A stretch of 64,000 nt of DNA, taken from NCBI RefSeq assembly GCF_003063665.1, contig NZ_NESF01000008.1:62001-126000 (forward strand), in the 5' to 3' direction. The position numbers and the translations under genes are program-made. The stretch comes from Limnohabitans sp. Hippo3. GTDB lineage: Bacteria; Pseudomonadota; Gammaproteobacteria; Burkholderiales; Burkholderiaceae_C. Positions 1 through 34,649 of this stretch are shown here, in pieces; within the stretch, counting starts at the first letter, position 1; every line of letters begins with the position of its first letter. Below the pieces are notes generated by a model. That model made no database searches and had not been told where the DNA came from. It saw only the letters and a program-made list of their open reading frames with translations.

Positions 1-1
1 A

Positions 2-724
2 AAACCCCTGGAGCTCGACCTGCAGCGCTCTGCCCAACTGGTCGAGGCGGCCCAACAATCGGGGCTGCACCTGGGAGTGGTGCTGCAGCACCGCTTTCGC
101 GAAGCCTCGGTCGTGTTGCAGCAATTGCTCACGCAAGGGCGCTTGGGCGAAGTGCAGGCCGCTTCGGTGCGGGTGCCCTGGTGGCGCTCGCAAGCGTATT
201 ACAACGAACTCGGGCGCGGCACTTTGGCGCGTGACGGAGGTGGCGTTTTGCTCACCCAGGCCATCCACACCCTGAACCTGTTTCAGGCTTTGGTCGGGGT
301 GCAATCGGTCAAAGCCGCCACAGTGCGACAAACCCGCCTGCACCAGATGGAAACCGAAGACCATGTGAGCGCCCTGCTGGTCCTGGGCAACGGCGCCCCC
401 GGCGACTTGATGGCCACCACGGCGATGTACCCCGGTTATCCGGAAACGATCGAGGTCATCGGCACGCTGGGCAGTGCACGCCTGAGTGGTGCCAGTCTGG
501 AAGTGAACTTTCTGACGCAAGAGACCCTGACGGTGACCAGCGAAGGCGGCACCGGCAGCGGTGCCAACATGATGGATTTTTCACACCAGCCCCACAAAGA
601 CCTGTTGACCGATTTCATCGACGCAATTGCTTCAAACCGCCCACCCCGGGTCACCGGTGCCGATGCGCTGAGCACCCACGCCCTGATCGATGAATTGCTG
701 CGCATGGGTTCATCGCCGCTGTGA
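2..724 (+). CDS. Gfo/Idh/MocA-family oxidoreductase, C-terminal part (5' end outside window)
   Basis: The reading frame is open from the first bases of the window and ends at TGA 722-724, giving 240 visible residues. It begins with K-P-L-E, which matches the conserved E-K-P segment that follows the NAD(P)-binding Rossmann fold in this family, so roughly 95 N-terminal residues are missing. The rest fits the substrate-binding alpha/beta domain: the QHRFREA stretch, then GGGVLLTQAIHTLNLF, where a helix with a conserved His usually sits in the active site. Such enzymes oxidise or reduce sugars, inositols or related polyols; the substrate cannot be told from this fragment. It converges on senA with 9 bp between the stops. 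Confidence 0.85.
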   Translation, partial: KPLELDLQRSAQLVEAAQQSGLHLGVVLQHRFREASVVLQQLLTQGRLGEVQAASVRVPWWRSQAYYNELGRGTLARDGGGVLLTQAIHTLNLFQALVGVQSVKAATVRQTRLHQMETEDHVSALLVLGNGAPGDLMATTAMYPGYPETIEVIGTLGSARLSGASLEVNFLTQETLTVTSEGGTGSGANMMDFSHQPHKDLLTDFIDAIASNRPPRVTGADALSTHALIDELLRMGSSPL

Positions 725-733
725 GCTGATTGC

Positions 734-1987
734 TCACAAGGCCACGGACCGGAAGCCTGCAAAGATGTCCTGACGCTCGGGCACAAAGAAGTTACGGTAA
801 CGCACATCCACCACATGCGCTGAGGTGGCCGCGCATGCCCCACGCAGCACGCGGTGCGTGTGCCACCAAGGCGCTGAATAGTCGCGGTAGGGATGCACCT
901 CAAAACTCGGATAGGGCGCGAAGTCGCTGGCCGTCCATTCCCACACCTGTCCCCACGCAAAACCGGACTGCTGCGCAGCGCAATCCCACTCGGCCTCGGT
1001 GGGCAAGCGCCTGCCCGCCCATTGGCACCAAGCCTCAGCATCCTGCGCGCTCAGGTGCACCGCCGGGGCTTGCAAGTCCAGCGCTTGCCACCGGCCAAAG
1101 CGCTGCGCTTGCCAAGCCCCATGCTCCCAGCGCACGTGCGGCGGCATGGGGTGACCTGTGGCCTGCACAAACGGCAGGTAACGCGCCCAGCTGACAGCCT
1201 CTGCGTCGATGCTGAAAGCCGCCAGCGCCACCGGGTGGGCCTGGCGCTCGTTGTCGAAAGCGAAACCTGGCCCCGCATGGCCGAGTGTGTAGACCTGCGC
1301 CGCCACATGGATCTGTGCTGGGGACTCAGTCTGCAACCAGGGGGCACCCGTACGCCAGCACAGGGCCTCGGGCAAGGTCAGTCCCAAAGCCTGCGCCATG
1401 TAGACCGAGGCTTCGTTGTGCATGTCCTCGTGTTGCAGGGCCAGCCGCCAGAAATACAGGTCATCGTCGCTGGCTACATGACCTGCGTCGTGCTGCACCT
1501 GCACCGCTTGCAAGTGGCCCAGGCTGCGCTGCAGCACCTGCGCCAAATAGGTCTGCGTCCCGGCCAGATCGGGCAAAGACAAAGCCCAGCGGCTGTCGTG
1601 CGCCACCTCGCTGGAGTTGTAGAGCGCATCGGCATGGGACAGCAGCGAGGCGTCAAAGTCCGCGCCGCTGCTGGCACTGCGCGTGCCCAGATGGTGCTGG
1701 CGGTTGCGCACTGTCCACCATTCCTGAAACCAGGCGATGTGACCCCACTCCCACAAAGGTGGGTTCATGCCGGGCAGGGGCGGCACCGACAAATCGGGCA
1801 GGGCGCTTTGCCAAGCCTGCATCAGCCCCAGCGTGCGGGTGCGGGTGGCTTGCAGGGCGCGGGCCAACGCCGCAGGCCCGGCGGTGCGCACAGCGCTGTG
1901 CACGGGCCCCAGGGAAGCTGAAAAAGACCCGGCCAACGATGCGCCTGGCCCTGTCTGCCCTGCCCCTGCCGTGGTACTGCCATTCAT
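734..1987 (-). CDS. senA: Selenoneine synthase SenA (EgtB-like non-haem iron C-Se bond-forming enzyme)
   Basis: 417 residues with the EgtB layout: an N-terminal DinB-like four-helix domain and a C-terminal formylglycine-generating-enzyme (FGE-sulfatase) domain. Iron ligands are visible as H83 in WGHIAWFQEW and H186/H190 in the HEDMHNE motif. The C-terminus has the family signature RYRNFF..ER.D...GFR (396-413). EgtB itself makes ergothioneine; the assignment to SenA rests on the neighbours, a TIGR04348-type glycosyltransferase (SenB) and a selenophosphate synthetase, the known senABC set. SenA would couple the selenosugar to hercynine oxidatively. The reading frame is open for 128 codons further upstream, but that stretch is antisense to senB. 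ATG 1987 is preferred; an ATG at 2002 would overlap the senB start. No strong ribosome-binding site is visible. No EgtD-type hercynine methyltransferase lies in the window. Confidence 0.85.
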   Translation of the reverse strand: MNGSTTAGAGQTGPGASLAGSFSASLGPVHSAVRTAGPAALARALQATRTRTLGLMQAWQSALPDLSVPPLPGMNPPLWEWGHIAWFQEWWTVRNRQHHLGTRSASSGADFDASLLSHADALYNSSEVAHDSRWALSLPDLAGTQTYLAQVLQRSLGHLQAVQVQHDAGHVASDDDLYFWRLALQHEDMHNEASVYMAQALGLTLPEALCWRTGAPWLQTESPAQIHVAAQVYTLGHAGPGFAFDNERQAHPVALAAFSIDAEAVSWARYLPFVQATGHPMPPHVRWEHGAWQAQRFGRWQALDLQAPAVHLSAQDAEAWCQWAGRRLPTEAEWDCAAQQSGFAWGQVWEWTASDFAPYPSFEVHPYRDYSAPWWHTHRVLRGACAATSAHVVDVRYRNFFVPERQDIFAGFRSVAL

Positions 1988-2000
1988 GTATAAACCGCCC

Positions 2001-2975
2001 ATGCAAAAACTTCGTGTGGTCATTGTCAGCCCGGCCTTGGCCGACGCCAACAATGGCAATTGGCAAACGGCGCGCCGCTGGCAACAACTGCTGTCTGCGC
2101 ATTCTGCCCGCATCGTGCGGCAGTGGCCCGATGCCCAGGCTGACACGGACGATGTGATGCTGGCACTGCACGCCCGCCGCTCGGCCGAGGCGGTGCAGGC
2201 CTGGCACGACAGGCACGGCCAGCGGGGCCTGGGCGTGGTGCTGACGGGCACCGACCTGTACCGCGACATTGCCCATGACCCGCAAGCGCAAAAGTCTTTG
2301 GCACTGGCGCATTCCTTGGTGGTGCTGCAGGGGCTGGGGGTGCAAAGCCTGCCGCCCGAGCACCAGGCCAAGGCCCGCGTGATTTTTCAGTCCACCGGCA
2401 CGCGCCAGACCTTGCCCAAAACCAAGCGCCACCTGCGCGTGGTGATGGTGGGCCATCTGCGCGAAGAAAAAGACCCGCTCACCCTCATGGCAGCAGCCCG
2501 ACTGTTGCCACCCGACGCTGGCGTGTTCATCGACCACATTGGCGCAGCGCTTGACCTCGTGCTGGGCCAGGCCGCAGAGGCCACGCAGGCGCAATGCCCC
2601 CATTACCGCTGGCTGGGGGCTGTGCCTCACGCGCAAACGCTGCGACGCATCCAGCGCGCCCACCTGCTGGTGCACTGCAGCCGCATGGAAGGCGGGGCGC
2701 ATGTGCTGATGGAGGCGATGTGCAGCGGCACGCCCGTGCTGGCCTCGCGCATCGACGGCAACGTGGGCCTGTTGGGCGAAGATTACGCGGGCTACTTCGA
2801 GCCCGGTGATGCACAGGCACTCGCCGATTTTTTGCTGGCTTGCCGAGCGCCGCAGACCGGTCACAGCCTGGTGGCACACTTGGGGGATCAGTGCGCCTTG
2901 CGCGCACCCTTGTTTGAACCTCAGGCCGAACGCGCCGCCTTGCACCGCTGGGTGCAAGACCTCTGGACCCATTAA
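2001..2975 (+). CDS. senB: Selenosugar synthase SenB (TIGR04348-type glycosyltransferase)
   Basis: 324 residues, GT-B fold glycosyltransferase. The N-terminal half opens with a nucleotide-fold strand (KLRVVIVSPA) and a NNGNWQTARRW loop typical of the TIGR04348 group. The C-terminal half has the GHLREEKDP segment (151-159) and the donor-binding E-x7-E motif at E230/E238 (EGGAHVLMEA). In the selenoneine pathway SenB joins selenophosphate to UDP-N-acetylglucosamine to make a selenosugar, the first C-Se bond. The start ATG 2001 lies 13 bp from the divergent senA start. The stop codon (2973-2975) directly abuts the selD ATG, so the two are almost certainly cotranscribed and translationally coupled. 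Longer upstream reading frames are antisense to senA and were discarded. Confidence 0.87.
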   Translation: MQKLRVVIVSPALADANNGNWQTARRWQQLLSAHSARIVRQWPDAQADTDDVMLALHARRSAEAVQAWHDRHGQRGLGVVLTGTDLYRDIAHDPQAQKSLALAHSLVVLQGLGVQSLPPEHQAKARVIFQSTGTRQTLPKTKRHLRVVMVGHLREEKDPLTLMAAARLLPPDAGVFIDHIGAALDLVLGQAAEATQAQCPHYRWLGAVPHAQTLRRIQRAHLLVHCSRMEGGAHVLMEAMCSGTPVLASRIDGNVGLLGEDYAGYFEPGDAQALADFLLACRAPQTGHSLVAHLGDQCALRAPLFEPQAERAALHRWVQDLWTH

Positions 2976-5330
2976 ATGCAATCATCCCATCAACCTGTTT
3001 TGCGCGACCTGGTGCTGGTCGGCGGCGGCCACAGCCATGTGGGCGTGCTGCGCATGTTCGCCATGAAGCCCGAGCCCGGTGTGCGCATCACCGTGATCTG
3101 CACCGACATCGACACGCCCTACTCGGGCATGCTGCCCGGCTACATCTCAGGCCATTACAGTTTTGACGAGGTGCACATCGACCTAGGCCGCCTGTGCGCC
3201 TTTGCCGGTGCACGCCTGTACCACGACGCCGTGGTCGGCATCGACCGCAAAAACCAGAAAGTCATTTGCCAAAACCGCCCACCCGTGGCCTATGACCTGC
3301 TGTCCATCAACATCGGCTCCACGCCGCAGGTGCAACACATCGAAGGCGCACCCACGCTGGCGGTGCCCGTCAAACCGATTGCGCAGTTCAACCAGCGCTG
3401 GCTGGCCCTGCTGGAAAAGGCGCGGCAGTGGCCATCGCACAGGGGTCGCATGACGATCGCGGTGGTGGGCGGTGGTGCGGGGGGCGTGGAGCTTCTGCTG
3501 TCCATGCAGTACCGTTTGCGCCACGAGCTCAAGGCCCTGGGGCGCAGCCCCGAAGATTTGAAATTTGTGCTGCTGACTTCAGGCGACACGATCTTGCCCA
3601 CACACAACCCAGGCGTTCGCGCACGCTTTGTCAAAGTGCTGCAAGAGCGCAATGTCGAGGTGCACACGCATGCCGAGGTGGTGCAGGTCTCGCCCGGCTG
3701 CCTGCACACGCGCGATGGCCGCACCTTCGATGCCGACGAAACCATGTGGGTCACACAGGCCGGTGGCCCGGCCTGGCTGCAAAGCACGGGTCTGGCGCTC
3801 GATGACAAAGGCTTCATCCTCGTTCACCCCCAGTTGCAATGCCTGAATGACCCGCTGGTGTTCGCAGCGGGCGATATTGCCTCGTTGGTGGAACGCCCGC
3901 TGGAAAAAGCAGGTGTGTTTGCCGTGCGCATGGCCAAGCCTTTGGCCGAGAATTTGCGCCGCAGTTTGCGCGGCCAAAAACTATTGGCTTACCACCCACA
4001 ACGCCACTGGCTGGCCCTGATCTCGACCGGCAACCGTTATGCCGTGGGTTCGCGTGGGCCTTGGGGCTTTGGCGGTGACTGGGTGTGGCGCTGGAAGGAC
4101 CGGATCGATCGGCAGTTCATGCGCCGCTTCACCGAATTGCCCGACATGGCAACCCAAGCGCCTGGCACCAATTTGCAGACTGCCATGCGGTCGATGGGCC
4201 AACTCCTCAAGGACATCCAGGCGCAAGGCAAAGCCCCCACCACGCGCCTGAGCCTGACATCCGAGGAGTCCTTGCAGGCCATCTCGGCCATCGCCATGCG
4301 CTGCGGCGGCTGCGGCGCCAAGGTCGGTGCCAACATCCTGTCCCGCGCACTGGGCAGTTTGCAACCGGTGGAACGACCGGATGTGCTGATCGGCCTGCAC
4401 TCGCCCGACGACGCAGCCGTGGTGCGCGTGCCGCCCGGCATGGCCGTGGTGCAGACGGTGGACTTTTTCCGGGCTTTCATCGACGACCCCTATCTGTTTG
4501 GCAAAGTGGCGGCCAACCACGCACTGGGCGATATTTTTGCCATGGGCGGCGAGCCGCAAACGGCCACCGCCGTGGTCACCGTGCCGCCGGGCCTGGAAAG
4601 CAAGGTCGAAGACCTGCTGACGCAAATGATGGGCGGCGCGATCGAGGTGCTGAACGCCGCAGGCTGCGCCCTGGTGGGCGGACACACAGGCGAAGGCGCG
4701 GAGCTGGCCCTGGGCTTTGCCATCAACGGGCTGATCGACGAGAAGATGGACAGCGTGATGCGCAAGGGCGGCATGCAGCCCGGCGATGTGCTGCTGTTGA
4801 CCAAACCCATGGGCATCGGCACCTTGTTTGCCGCACACGCACGCCATGCGGCCAAGGGTCGATGGATCGCCGCCGCCTTGCAATCGATGGTGCAATCCAA
4901 TCAGCAGGGCGCTGCCATTTTGCGCACGCATGGCGCCACCGCCTGCACCGACCTGACCGGCTTTGGTCTGCTCGGCCACTTGGTGGAGATGACGCGGCCA
5001 TCCGGCGTGGACGCCGAGTTGAACATGAGCACGCTGCCCCTGCTGGACGGTGCGGTGGACTGCGTCAAGGCGGGCATCGTCAGCTCCTTGCAACCGGCCA
5101 ATGTGCGGCTGCGCCGTGCCCTGCGCAACGCGGACGAGTTTGTGGGCGACCCGCGCTACCCGCTGCTGTTTGACCCGCAAACCGCGGGCGGCTTGCTGGC
5201 CAGCGTGCCCGCAGCCCAAGCCGCTGCCTGTGTGCAGGCGCTCAAAGCGGCAGGCTACGCGCACACCGCCATCATCGGCCGCATCACCGCGCAAGGCGAA
5301 GCCATTGAGCCGGTGCTGCTGAAAACCTGA
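2976..5330 (+). CDS. selD: Selenide, water dikinase SelD/SenC with N-terminal NADH dehydrogenase-like FAD domain
   Basis: 784 residues in two parts. Residues 1-400 resemble type II NADH dehydrogenases: an FAD-binding LVGGGHSHVGVL at 13-24, an NAD-binding VVGGGAGGVELL at 163-174, and an FAD-contact FAAGDIA at 297-303. Residues 430-784 are selenophosphate synthetase with the catalytic CGGCGAK loop (C443, C446, K449) and metal-binding Asp residues in SPDDAAV and VDFF. The catalytic position is Cys; there is no in-frame TGA selenocysteine. The product makes selenophosphate from selenide and ATP, here for SenB and possibly for selU or selA elsewhere. The flavin domain could supply reduced selenium (inference). 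The fused form is known in many bacteria; here it fills the SenC position of the selenoneine cluster. A cupin gene follows 14 bp downstream. Confidence 0.93.
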   Translation: MQSSHQPVLRDLVLVGGGHSHVGVLRMFAMKPEPGVRITVICTDIDTPYSGMLPGYISGHYSFDEVHIDLGRLCAFAGARLYHDAVVGIDRKNQKVICQNRPPVAYDLLSINIGSTPQVQHIEGAPTLAVPVKPIAQFNQRWLALLEKARQWPSHRGRMTIAVVGGGAGGVELLLSMQYRLRHELKALGRSPEDLKFVLLTSGDTILPTHNPGVRARFVKVLQERNVEVHTHAEVVQVSPGCLHTRDGRTFDADETMWVTQAGGPAWLQSTGLALDDKGFILVHPQLQCLNDPLVFAAGDIASLVERPLEKAGVFAVRMAKPLAENLRRSLRGQKLLAYHPQRHWLALISTGNRYAVGSRGPWGFGGDWVWRWKDRIDRQFMRRFTELPDMATQAPGTNLQTAMRSMGQLLKDIQAQGKAPTTRLSLTSEESLQAISAIAMRCGGCGAKVGANILSRALGSLQPVERPDVLIGLHSPDDAAVVRVPPGMAVVQTVDFFRAFIDDPYLFGKVAANHALGDIFAMGGEPQTATAVVTVPPGLESKVEDLLTQMMGGAIEVLNAAGCALVGGHTGEGAELALGFAINGLIDEKMDSVMRKGGMQPGDVLLLTKPMGIGTLFAAHARHAAKGRWIAAALQSMVQSNQQGAAILRTHGATACTDLTGFGLLGHLVEMTRPSGVDAELNMSTLPLLDGAVDCVKAGIVSSLQPANVRLRRALRNADEFVGDPRYPLLFDPQTAGGLLASVPAAQAAACVQALKAAGYAHTAIIGRITAQGEAIEPVLLKT

Positions 5331-5344
5331 GCGGCTCCAACGAC

Positions 5345-6025
5345 ATGACCACAGAACACTTCACCCACCCCATCACACTGAACGCCGACCTGGCCCAGCG
5401 CTGCGTCGTGCACAGCCCCTCGCTCGATTGGGTGGCATCGCCCGCTTCAGGCGTGTCGCGCCGCATGCTCGAGCGCGACGGCGGCGAAGTGGCGCGCGTC
5501 ACGTCCATCGTACGTTATGCGCCGGGCTCGGCCTTTGCCAGCCACACGCATGGCGGGGGTGAGGAAATTTGGGTGCTCGACGGCACGCTGCACGACGAGC
5601 ACGGGGTCTACGGCCCCGGCACCTACATCAAGAATCCGGTGGGCAGTTCGCACGCGCCGTCATCGCCCGAGGGCTGCATCTTGTTTGTGAAGCTGCGCCA
5701 CCTGGACCCACGCGACGACGAGCGCGTGGTCATCGACACACGGCGCAGCCAATGGCGACAAGGCCTGGTAGAGGGCCTCAAGGTCTTGCCCCTGAACACC
5801 TTCGAGACCCAAAACACCGCCCTGGTGCGCTGGGCACCGTAGACGTTTTTCAACCCGCACCGGCATTGGGGCGGCGAAGAGATTCTGGTGCTCGAAGGCG
5901 TGTTTTCTGACGAGCACGGCGACTACCCGGCAGGCAGCTGGCTGCGCAGCCCACACATGAGCCAGCACCAACCCTTCAGCCGCGAAGGCTGTCTGATCCT
6001 TGTGAAAACCGGACACTTGGTATGA
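5345..6025 (+). pseudogene. ChrR-type two-domain cupin gene interrupted by an in-frame amber codon
   Basis: The first open frame (5345-5839, 165 aa) carries a full ChrR-like cupin with metal-ligand motif SHTHGGGEE and a G..IKNP turn. After TAG at 5840-5842 the same frame continues without a shift to TGA 6023-6025 and encodes a second, clearly homologous cupin: [17 protein letters not shown], then [15 protein letters not shown] and [10 protein letters not shown]. Two-repeat ChrR cupins of about 220 residues are the family norm, so the ancestral gene was 227 codons and one codon has become TAG. Either the product is truncated to one domain, the codon is read through, or the base call is wrong. 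It sits 14 bp after selD and 22 bp before an araC gene, so it is probably the last gene of the senB-selD transcript. Cupins of this type are often linked to oxidative stress responses. Confidence 0.8.
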
Positions 6026-34528: not shown

Positions 34529-34640
34529 GCTCACCTTGGGATAACAGGTGAGCGTCGTTGTGCAAGATCATTCAGACATTGAACGGCCCCAAGCCTGACC
34601 TGCTGCGCCTGAAAGGCGGCGGGCTGCAACGCTCCTTGGG
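34529..34640 (-). promoter_or_regulatory. S-adenosylhomocysteine (SAH) riboswitch of metH
   Basis: Minus strand. Pairing stem P1 is CCCAAGG (from 34640) with GCTTGGG (about 34586-34592). After P1 comes GGAGCGTTGCA, followed by an internal C/G-rich hairpin (CGCC/GGCG). The downstream AACGACGCTCAC (34548-34559) complements AGCGTT and GAGCG to form the pseudoknot of the SAH aptamer. The expression platform is GCTCACC-11-nt loop-GGTGAGC (34529-34553): without SAH its 3' arm, which carries AAGGTGAG, is masked. With SAH the 5' arm joins the pseudoknot and the ribosome-binding site is freed. This matches the known ON-type SAH riboswitch of beta- and gammaproteobacterial metH and ahcY genes. Confidence 0.85.
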
Positions 34641-34649
34641 AAATGCGTG

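Follow-up and report, generated by a model that had tools for sequence, protein, structure and literature searches.

A selenoneine-type locus with an oxidoreductase–SelD fusion, a displaced egtD and a positionally linked candidate selenium transporter in Limnohabitans sp. Hippo3

What does a Limnohabitans-like freshwater bacterium make with a divergent senA and senB–selD gene pair, and where could it obtain the hercynine and the selenium that such genes would consume? We addressed this question for a 64,000-nucleotide stretch of Limnohabitans sp. Hippo3 (assembly GCF_003063665.1, contig NZ_NESF01000008.1, positions 62,001 to 126,000; hereafter the window), in which a preliminary description of positions 734 to 5,330 had proposed a complete selenoneine locus. 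Excerpts of PMC10891094 establish that selenoneine is made via SenA, SenB and SenC in Variovorax. The genes at issue here very probably form a selenoneine biosynthesis locus, judged from sequence, and their layout is that of a genuine, fairly ordinary case of the known type, with its SelD fused and its egtD displaced. The three open reading frames (ORFs) are adjacent, with senA divergent from senB–selD, as had been described:

734 to 1987, minus strand: senA, selenoneine synthase, matching NF041186, start codon uncertain
2001 to 2975, plus strand: senB, selenosugar synthase, matching TIGR04348
2976 to 5330, plus strand: senC slot, an oxidoreductase–SelD fusion in a single ORF, matching TIGR03169 and TIGR00476

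The first matter to settle is whether the senA product is a selenoneine synthase or an EgtB-type sulfoxide synthase, in which case the locus would yield ergothioneine or a sulfur analogue. SenA and EgtB have a common fold, the protein still scores 200.9 bits against the EgtB model TIGR03440, and EgtD is encoded nearby. That score is far below the TIGR03440 cut-off of 360, however, whereas the protein passes the NCBI equivalog NF041186 (444.3 bits; cut-off 420), and no protein in the genome exceeds the EgtB cut-off. Against chains of solved structures, it reaches 371 bits with SenA (8k5i, 8ryz), 133–143 with the selenoxide synthase OvsA, 79–98 with EgtB and 30–42 with EgtB-IV. In a tree built by a quick method from 75 SenA-like proteins of the fetched loci (65 rows after omission of 10 SenA), 54 SenA, this one and 53 others, split from 11 EgtB-like proteins with a Shimodaira–Hasegawa-like approximate likelihood-ratio support of 100; the 11 comprise 6 proteins whose genes adjoin that of EgtD and 5 further, distant paralogues, labeled by gene place or distance and not by EgtB-model score, in a tree without characterized EgtB. 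Clustering with EgtB, which the preliminary description had named as evidence against its proposal, was thus not seen in the tree or in the solved-structure scores, and on these two lines together we take SenA to be distinct from EgtB. With model scores, solved-structure bits and a separate clade all speaking against EgtB identity, and with SenB and SelD as the neighbors of SenA, an ergothioneine-producing locus is very improbable. The three-histidine site expected of this enzyme is also present. Its codons begin at 1741, 1432 and 1420 on the minus strand, and the numbering H83/H186/H190 holds for a start at ATG 1987. Because that start leaves just 13 bases ahead of the senB ATG at 2001, a later one is possible (TTG 1936, GTG 1903 or GTG 1891). 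A promoter scan of the senA–senB interval detected no promoter.

The assignment of the second gene to a TIGR04348-type glycosyltransferase was likewise borne out. SenB scores 433.5 bits against that model (cut-off 300) and 414 bits against the solved SenB, its K157 aligns with K158 of the solved enzyme, and it retains the EGGAHV motif; both the lysine and the motif are named in excerpts of PMC10891094.

The third gene had been called selD, and here the description was only partly right: a selenophosphate synthetase domain is present, but it forms one part of a fusion. The ORF, which abuts senB with zero gap (2975/2976), encodes 784 residues, with an oxidoreductase domain at about 3006–4130 and a SelD domain at about 4296–5330. 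Residues 11–385 match TIGR03169 (505.5 bits; cut-off 310), an oxidoreductase model named for preceding SelD, and residues 441–748 match the SelD model TIGR00476 (301 bits; cut-off 125), while the look-alike family TIGR04369, ‘fusion_not_SelD’, is matched with 469.6 bits, under its cut-off of 700. A GGCGAK motif, with the Cys and Lys that are catalytic in SelD, follows shortly after residue 442. Fusions of this kind are not new. Excerpts of PMC2432076 described NADH-oxidoreductase/SelD fusions (COG1252) in 2008 and proposed that SelD receives a selenium compound which the oxidoreductase has reduced. The present COG1252/TIGR03169 fusion is distinguished by its place in the senC slot. Relative to senABC of Variovorax paradoxus DSM 30034, the locus shares SenA, SenB with its lysine and EGGAHV, and a selenophosphate synthetase; it differs in that SenC of V. 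paradoxus was modeled on the synthetase 2yye, according to excerpts of PMC11929427, whereas the protein here is an oxidoreductase–SelD fusion, and in that egtD is set apart by a seven-gene block.

How regular is this architecture? Among 150 genomes drawn from the host’s family, 53 had SenB over its cut-off and 97 were SenB-negative; the sen segments that we fetched usually spanned 20 kb, or less where a contig ended. Genome-wide, the 53 SenB-positive genomes carried SelD in every case, EgtD in 49, SenA in 46 and SelA in 7, each over its cut-off. SelD gave exactly one match in 50/53; the two matches in each of G040, G100 and G117 are partly fragments in the first two. The SenB segment itself includes SelD in 50 of the 53, in plain form in 38 and as a fusion in 12, this genome included. 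When SelD type is placed on a quick SenB tree with 24 of 50 inner branches open and 3 of 53 rows unlabeled, five changes between fused and plain forms are needed, and well-supported branches force at least two.

Is the selenophosphate then reserved for selenoneine? The preliminary description had predicted that selenium enters a small molecule independently of selenocysteine. The genome yielded zero SelA matches, and of 733 tRNA-Sec candidates 150 were scored, none of which reached the gathering score, so that selenocysteine synthesis appears to be absent and this part of the prediction stands. The small molecule is not, however, the sole use of selenium, because SelU is present on another contig of the same assembly (C1; the contig carrying the locus is C30):

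C1:368083-368994: SelU, 355.7 bits, cut-off 219.75

The fused protein is the only SelD above cut-off in the genome, and since SelU is present as well, both SenB and SelU are expected to draw on it. We therefore reject a SelD devoted solely to selenoneine. The opposite extreme, in which the fused SelD serves selenouridine alone, sits in the locus by chance and leaves SenB without selenophosphate, could also appeal to SelU, but it is scarcely credible given the presence of SelD in 50 of 53 SenB segments, the single SelD match in as many genomes, and the direct abutment of senB and selD here. A single oxidoreductase–SelD fusion can thus fill the senC slot while also being needed for tRNA selenouridine. 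SelU itself failed as a marker of sen loci: it is over cut-off in 51/53 SenB-positive genomes (with fragments in the other two) and in 69 of the 80 SenB-negative genomes sampled from the 97.

The source of hercynine was the next gap, as the preliminary description saw no egtD nearby. That is correct within the window, but the genome search it had called for, in an assembly of 2.99 Mb in 31 contigs that is 99.99% complete, found one egtD on the contig of the locus itself, at a distance of 6.8 kb from senA; it lies 6.0 kb past the left window edge. Immediately beyond it lies a set of transporter genes to which we return below:

C30:54998-55966, left of the window: egtD, EgtD model 338.7 bits, cut-off 290.9
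C30:51407-54935: PhnCDE-type ATP-binding cassette (ABC) transporter, four genes, divergent from egtD

With EgtD on the same contig, a source of hercynine is close by. EgtD and SenB occur together in one segment in 28 of the 53 genomes, and the EgtD–SenB distance here, 8.05 kb, is the longest among those 28. The seven-gene block that separates egtD from senA recurs between EgtD and SenA in an uncultured Burkholderiales bin (L172), where six of the seven genes were sought (a short-chain dehydrogenase/reductase, a TauD-like gene, two tripartite ATP-independent periplasmic transporter genes and two oxidoreductases) and all were found. In a bin titled Limnohabitans sp. Rim8 (L136), the block adjoins EgtD up to the end of the stretch. 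Limnohabitans sp. WS1 (L134) has a compact row of PhnD, EgtD, SenA, SenB, fused SelD and a cupin.

SenA is in the SenB segment of 38/53 genomes and is divergent and no more than 1 kb from SenB in 36. The remaining 15 segments hold no SenA or one under 150 bits; one of these, L050, reaches 148 bits and is cut by a contig end. We considered that a different enzyme might act at sen loci without a neighboring SenA, and mostly rejected this, as 9 of the other 14 genomes carry SenA over cut-off elsewhere. The five exceptions, with no SenA over cut-off anywhere, are G021, G036, G057, G108 and G137. In G108, the only candidate is a 343-bit protein encoded next to EgtD, and G057 contains EgtD and no SenA. 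G021 (L095), G036 (L076) and G137 (L078) have SenB and SelD with neither SenA nor EgtD in the genome, and these three may end the pathway at a free selenosugar. In G021, an additional ORF lies between senB and selD on the opposite strand. Two proteins over the SenA cut-off were found in each of G042, G046, G070, G074, G090, G091 and G098.

The remaining question is how selenium reaches SelD, and the transporter beside egtD is the part of the locus most deserving of specialist attention. ABC systems with a substrate-binding protein are importers. The binding protein here scores 361.5 bits against NCBIfam TIGR04553, ‘putative selenate transporter’ (cut-off 250), and fails the PhnD equivalog TIGR03431 (190.5 bits; cut-off 261.1). 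The TIGR04553 title is a prior NCBI name and hypothetical only. It is in print as an annotation, with a guess at selenite export in excerpts of PMC13077682, and we found no experimental study of a TIGR04553 transporter in the literature searched, which missed most subscription papers. Excerpts of a 2026 review (PMC13188914) and of a 2022 review describe the high-affinity selenium transporter of prokaryotes as unidentified, and no link of the transporter to sen loci occurs in the portions seen of these reviews or of the TIGR04553 annotation literature. A transporter positionally associated with SenB, SelD and SelU would be a concrete candidate gene for high-affinity selenium uptake.

The positional tie comes from several samples. 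First, within the sen segments of the 53 SenB-positive genomes, where the transporter was sought, PhnD was found in 36 and any subunit in 37; random placement in a 3-Mb genome would yield about 0.35 co-located cases among 53. Second, 31 of the 80 SenB-negative genomes had a transporter match, 20 of them close (47–71% best identity) and 11 at 26–34%; among the 20 close loci, SelD accompanies the transporter in the segment of 12, and SelU is there too in 9 of these. All 20 of these genomes carry SelU over cut-off, and close homologues (at least 47% identity) are missing from all 11 SenB-negative genomes in which SelU does not exceed its cut-off. With the 53 genomes added, all counted as SelU-positive and with kinship not controlled, the SelU association has p = 0.0018. 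Third, named genomes were scanned with the binding protein, which gave at least 590 loci. Of the best 80, at least 4 of which look like genomes already among the 53, 35 have SenB, SelD or SelU in their stretch; among the 61 loci whose stretch extends 4 kb or more upstream, the figure is 32.

Direct divergence from egtD in this genome could suggest another cargo, namely hercynine, selenoneine or ergothioneine. Such a role is improbable. The transporter stands beside SelD and SelU in SenB-less genomes, and it is divergent from SenB in G021 and G137, which have neither EgtD nor SenA; because of these placements, we regard selenium and not hercynine as the common element. In addition, the closest proteins of solved structure bind small phosphorus oxyanions. 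G021 and G137, in keeping the transporter, SenB and SelD without SenA and EgtD, hint at another selenium end product.

The same structural relatives raise a stronger alternative, that phosphate or a reduced phosphorus compound is the true cargo of the transporter, whose linkage to selenium genes would be historical. A structure model of a Limnohabitans homologue (L135), computed from a 14-sequence alignment (best of five with mean predicted local distance difference test score 83.6, the others 53–77), is nearest to PhnD1 structures of marine cyanobacteria (Z 29.1–29.7; root-mean-square deviation 3.4–3.7), which were solved with phosphate, methylphosphonate and phosphite. It is similar, too, to ArrX, which binds arsenate, and to AioX, which binds arsenite. 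According to excerpts of PMC5700983, phosphite in Prochlorococcus PhnD1 is held by Y46, S126, T127, S128, H158 and D205 and capped by Y206. We aligned the pocket in 135 of 136 family sequences (L134 was removed by a stop/length filter); five pairs are near-identical, four being one sequence in both sets and probably from the same genome, which leaves 130 distinct sequences. The six equivalents of Y46, S126, T127, S128, H158 and Y206 are invariant in 135/135 (130 distinct), as the phosphorus alternative would have it. At the D13/D205 pair, both aspartates are kept in 43 sequences, whereas 92 (87 of the 130 distinct), this genome included, have glutamate and asparagine jointly. The D/D and E/N pocket types could mark two ligand preferences or merely two clades. 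Compared with PhnD1/PtxB (5lq5, 7s6g), the family is thus alike in fold (Z 29.1, 29.7) and ligand residues, but L135 is only 34–41% identical to these proteins, the pair is changed to E/N in most distinct sequences, and linkage to selenium genes is found here. This linkage recurs with three different selenium genes; the 46 loci without SenA, SenB, SelD and SelU (6 with EgtD, 15 under 10 kb) show no other regular neighbor family, the commonest occurring in 14; and the binding protein fails the PhnD equivalog while passing TIGR04553. For these reasons we consider a phosphorus cargo unlikely, albeit less so than hercynine or its derivatives.

We instead favor a selenium cargo. That the transporter carries a selenium oxyanion is likely on the genomic associations, and that the oxyanion is selenite in particular is an evenly balanced proposition. 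Hydrogen selenite carries the same charge as hydrogen phosphite and, like it, presents a pyramidal face of three oxygens, and selenite would therefore fit a phosphite-type pocket; from the residues we infer that such a pyramidal-anion pocket with a capping tyrosine would suit hydrogen selenite better than selenate with its four oxygens. The fullest version of the selenium proposal, to which we give about an even chance, is that the transporter accompanying senB, selD and selU is a dedicated high-affinity selenium importer taking up selenite through a pocket inherited from phosphite binders, with SelD passing the selenium on to selenoneine, selenouridine or, where SenB occurs in a genome lacking SenA and EgtD, a selenosugar end product.

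Several observations weigh against a selenium importer. The pocket residues would fit phosphite or phosphate equally. No transporter gene occurs in 16 of the 53 sen segments, of which four (L049, L050, L051 and L059) have less than 3.3 kb upstream of senB and 12 have at least 7.3 kb, and the segment of G036, with SenB and neither SenA nor EgtD, is among those without one. Eight of the 20 close SenB-negative loci have no SelD or SelU in the segment, and the SelU association is weak in the SenB-negative set considered by itself (p = 0.033, kinship not controlled). Finally, neither SenB nor SelD nor SelU turned up in the available stretch of 45 named loci among the best 80 of 590, and all 80 were selected for their similarity to this one.

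Taken as a pathway, these components could work as follows. The TIGR04553 PhnCDE-type transporter would import selenium as an oxyanion, more probably selenite than selenate, and this would be converted to selenide, a reduction that the fusion's oxidoreductase domain may carry out. SelD would produce selenophosphate, shared with SelU. SenB would then make the selenosugar while EgtD supplied hercynine, and SenA would couple the two oxidatively to give selenoneine. The core locus would extend selenoneine synthesis to a Limnohabitans-like freshwater bacterium.

Near the transporter, at L002:117-2214 (C30:46116-48213), are genes for a rhodanese that appears to be exported and for a membrane protein of the YeeE/YedE type; the two are also found near the transporter in L134 and L141. 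Both proteins fall below the cut-offs of selenium-related models. A role for the rhodanese as an EanB-type ergothioneine enzyme was rejected by eye, given a signal-peptide-like start and sub-cut-off sulfurtransferase matches. Among the best 80 of 590 loci, bins titled Akkermansia (L142), Singulisphaera (L143) and Thermoflexus (L202) have binding-protein genes 75–88% identical to this one, and these bins are probably mislabeled or contaminated.

Two further genes flank the core:

1 to 724, plus strand: Gfo/Idh/MocA oxidoreductase, 3′ part, outside the pathway and the last gene of the seven-gene egtD–senA block
5345 to 5842, plus strand: ChrR-type cupin, matching PF12973 with 126.4 bits

The cupin begins 14 bp past the stop of the fused SelD and is possibly on the selD transcript; a ChrR-type cupin with 90% identity also adjoins SelD in Limnohabitans L134. 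Elsewhere in the window, an S-adenosylhomocysteine riboswitch was matched at 34543–34643 on the minus strand (45.2 bits; gathering score 37).

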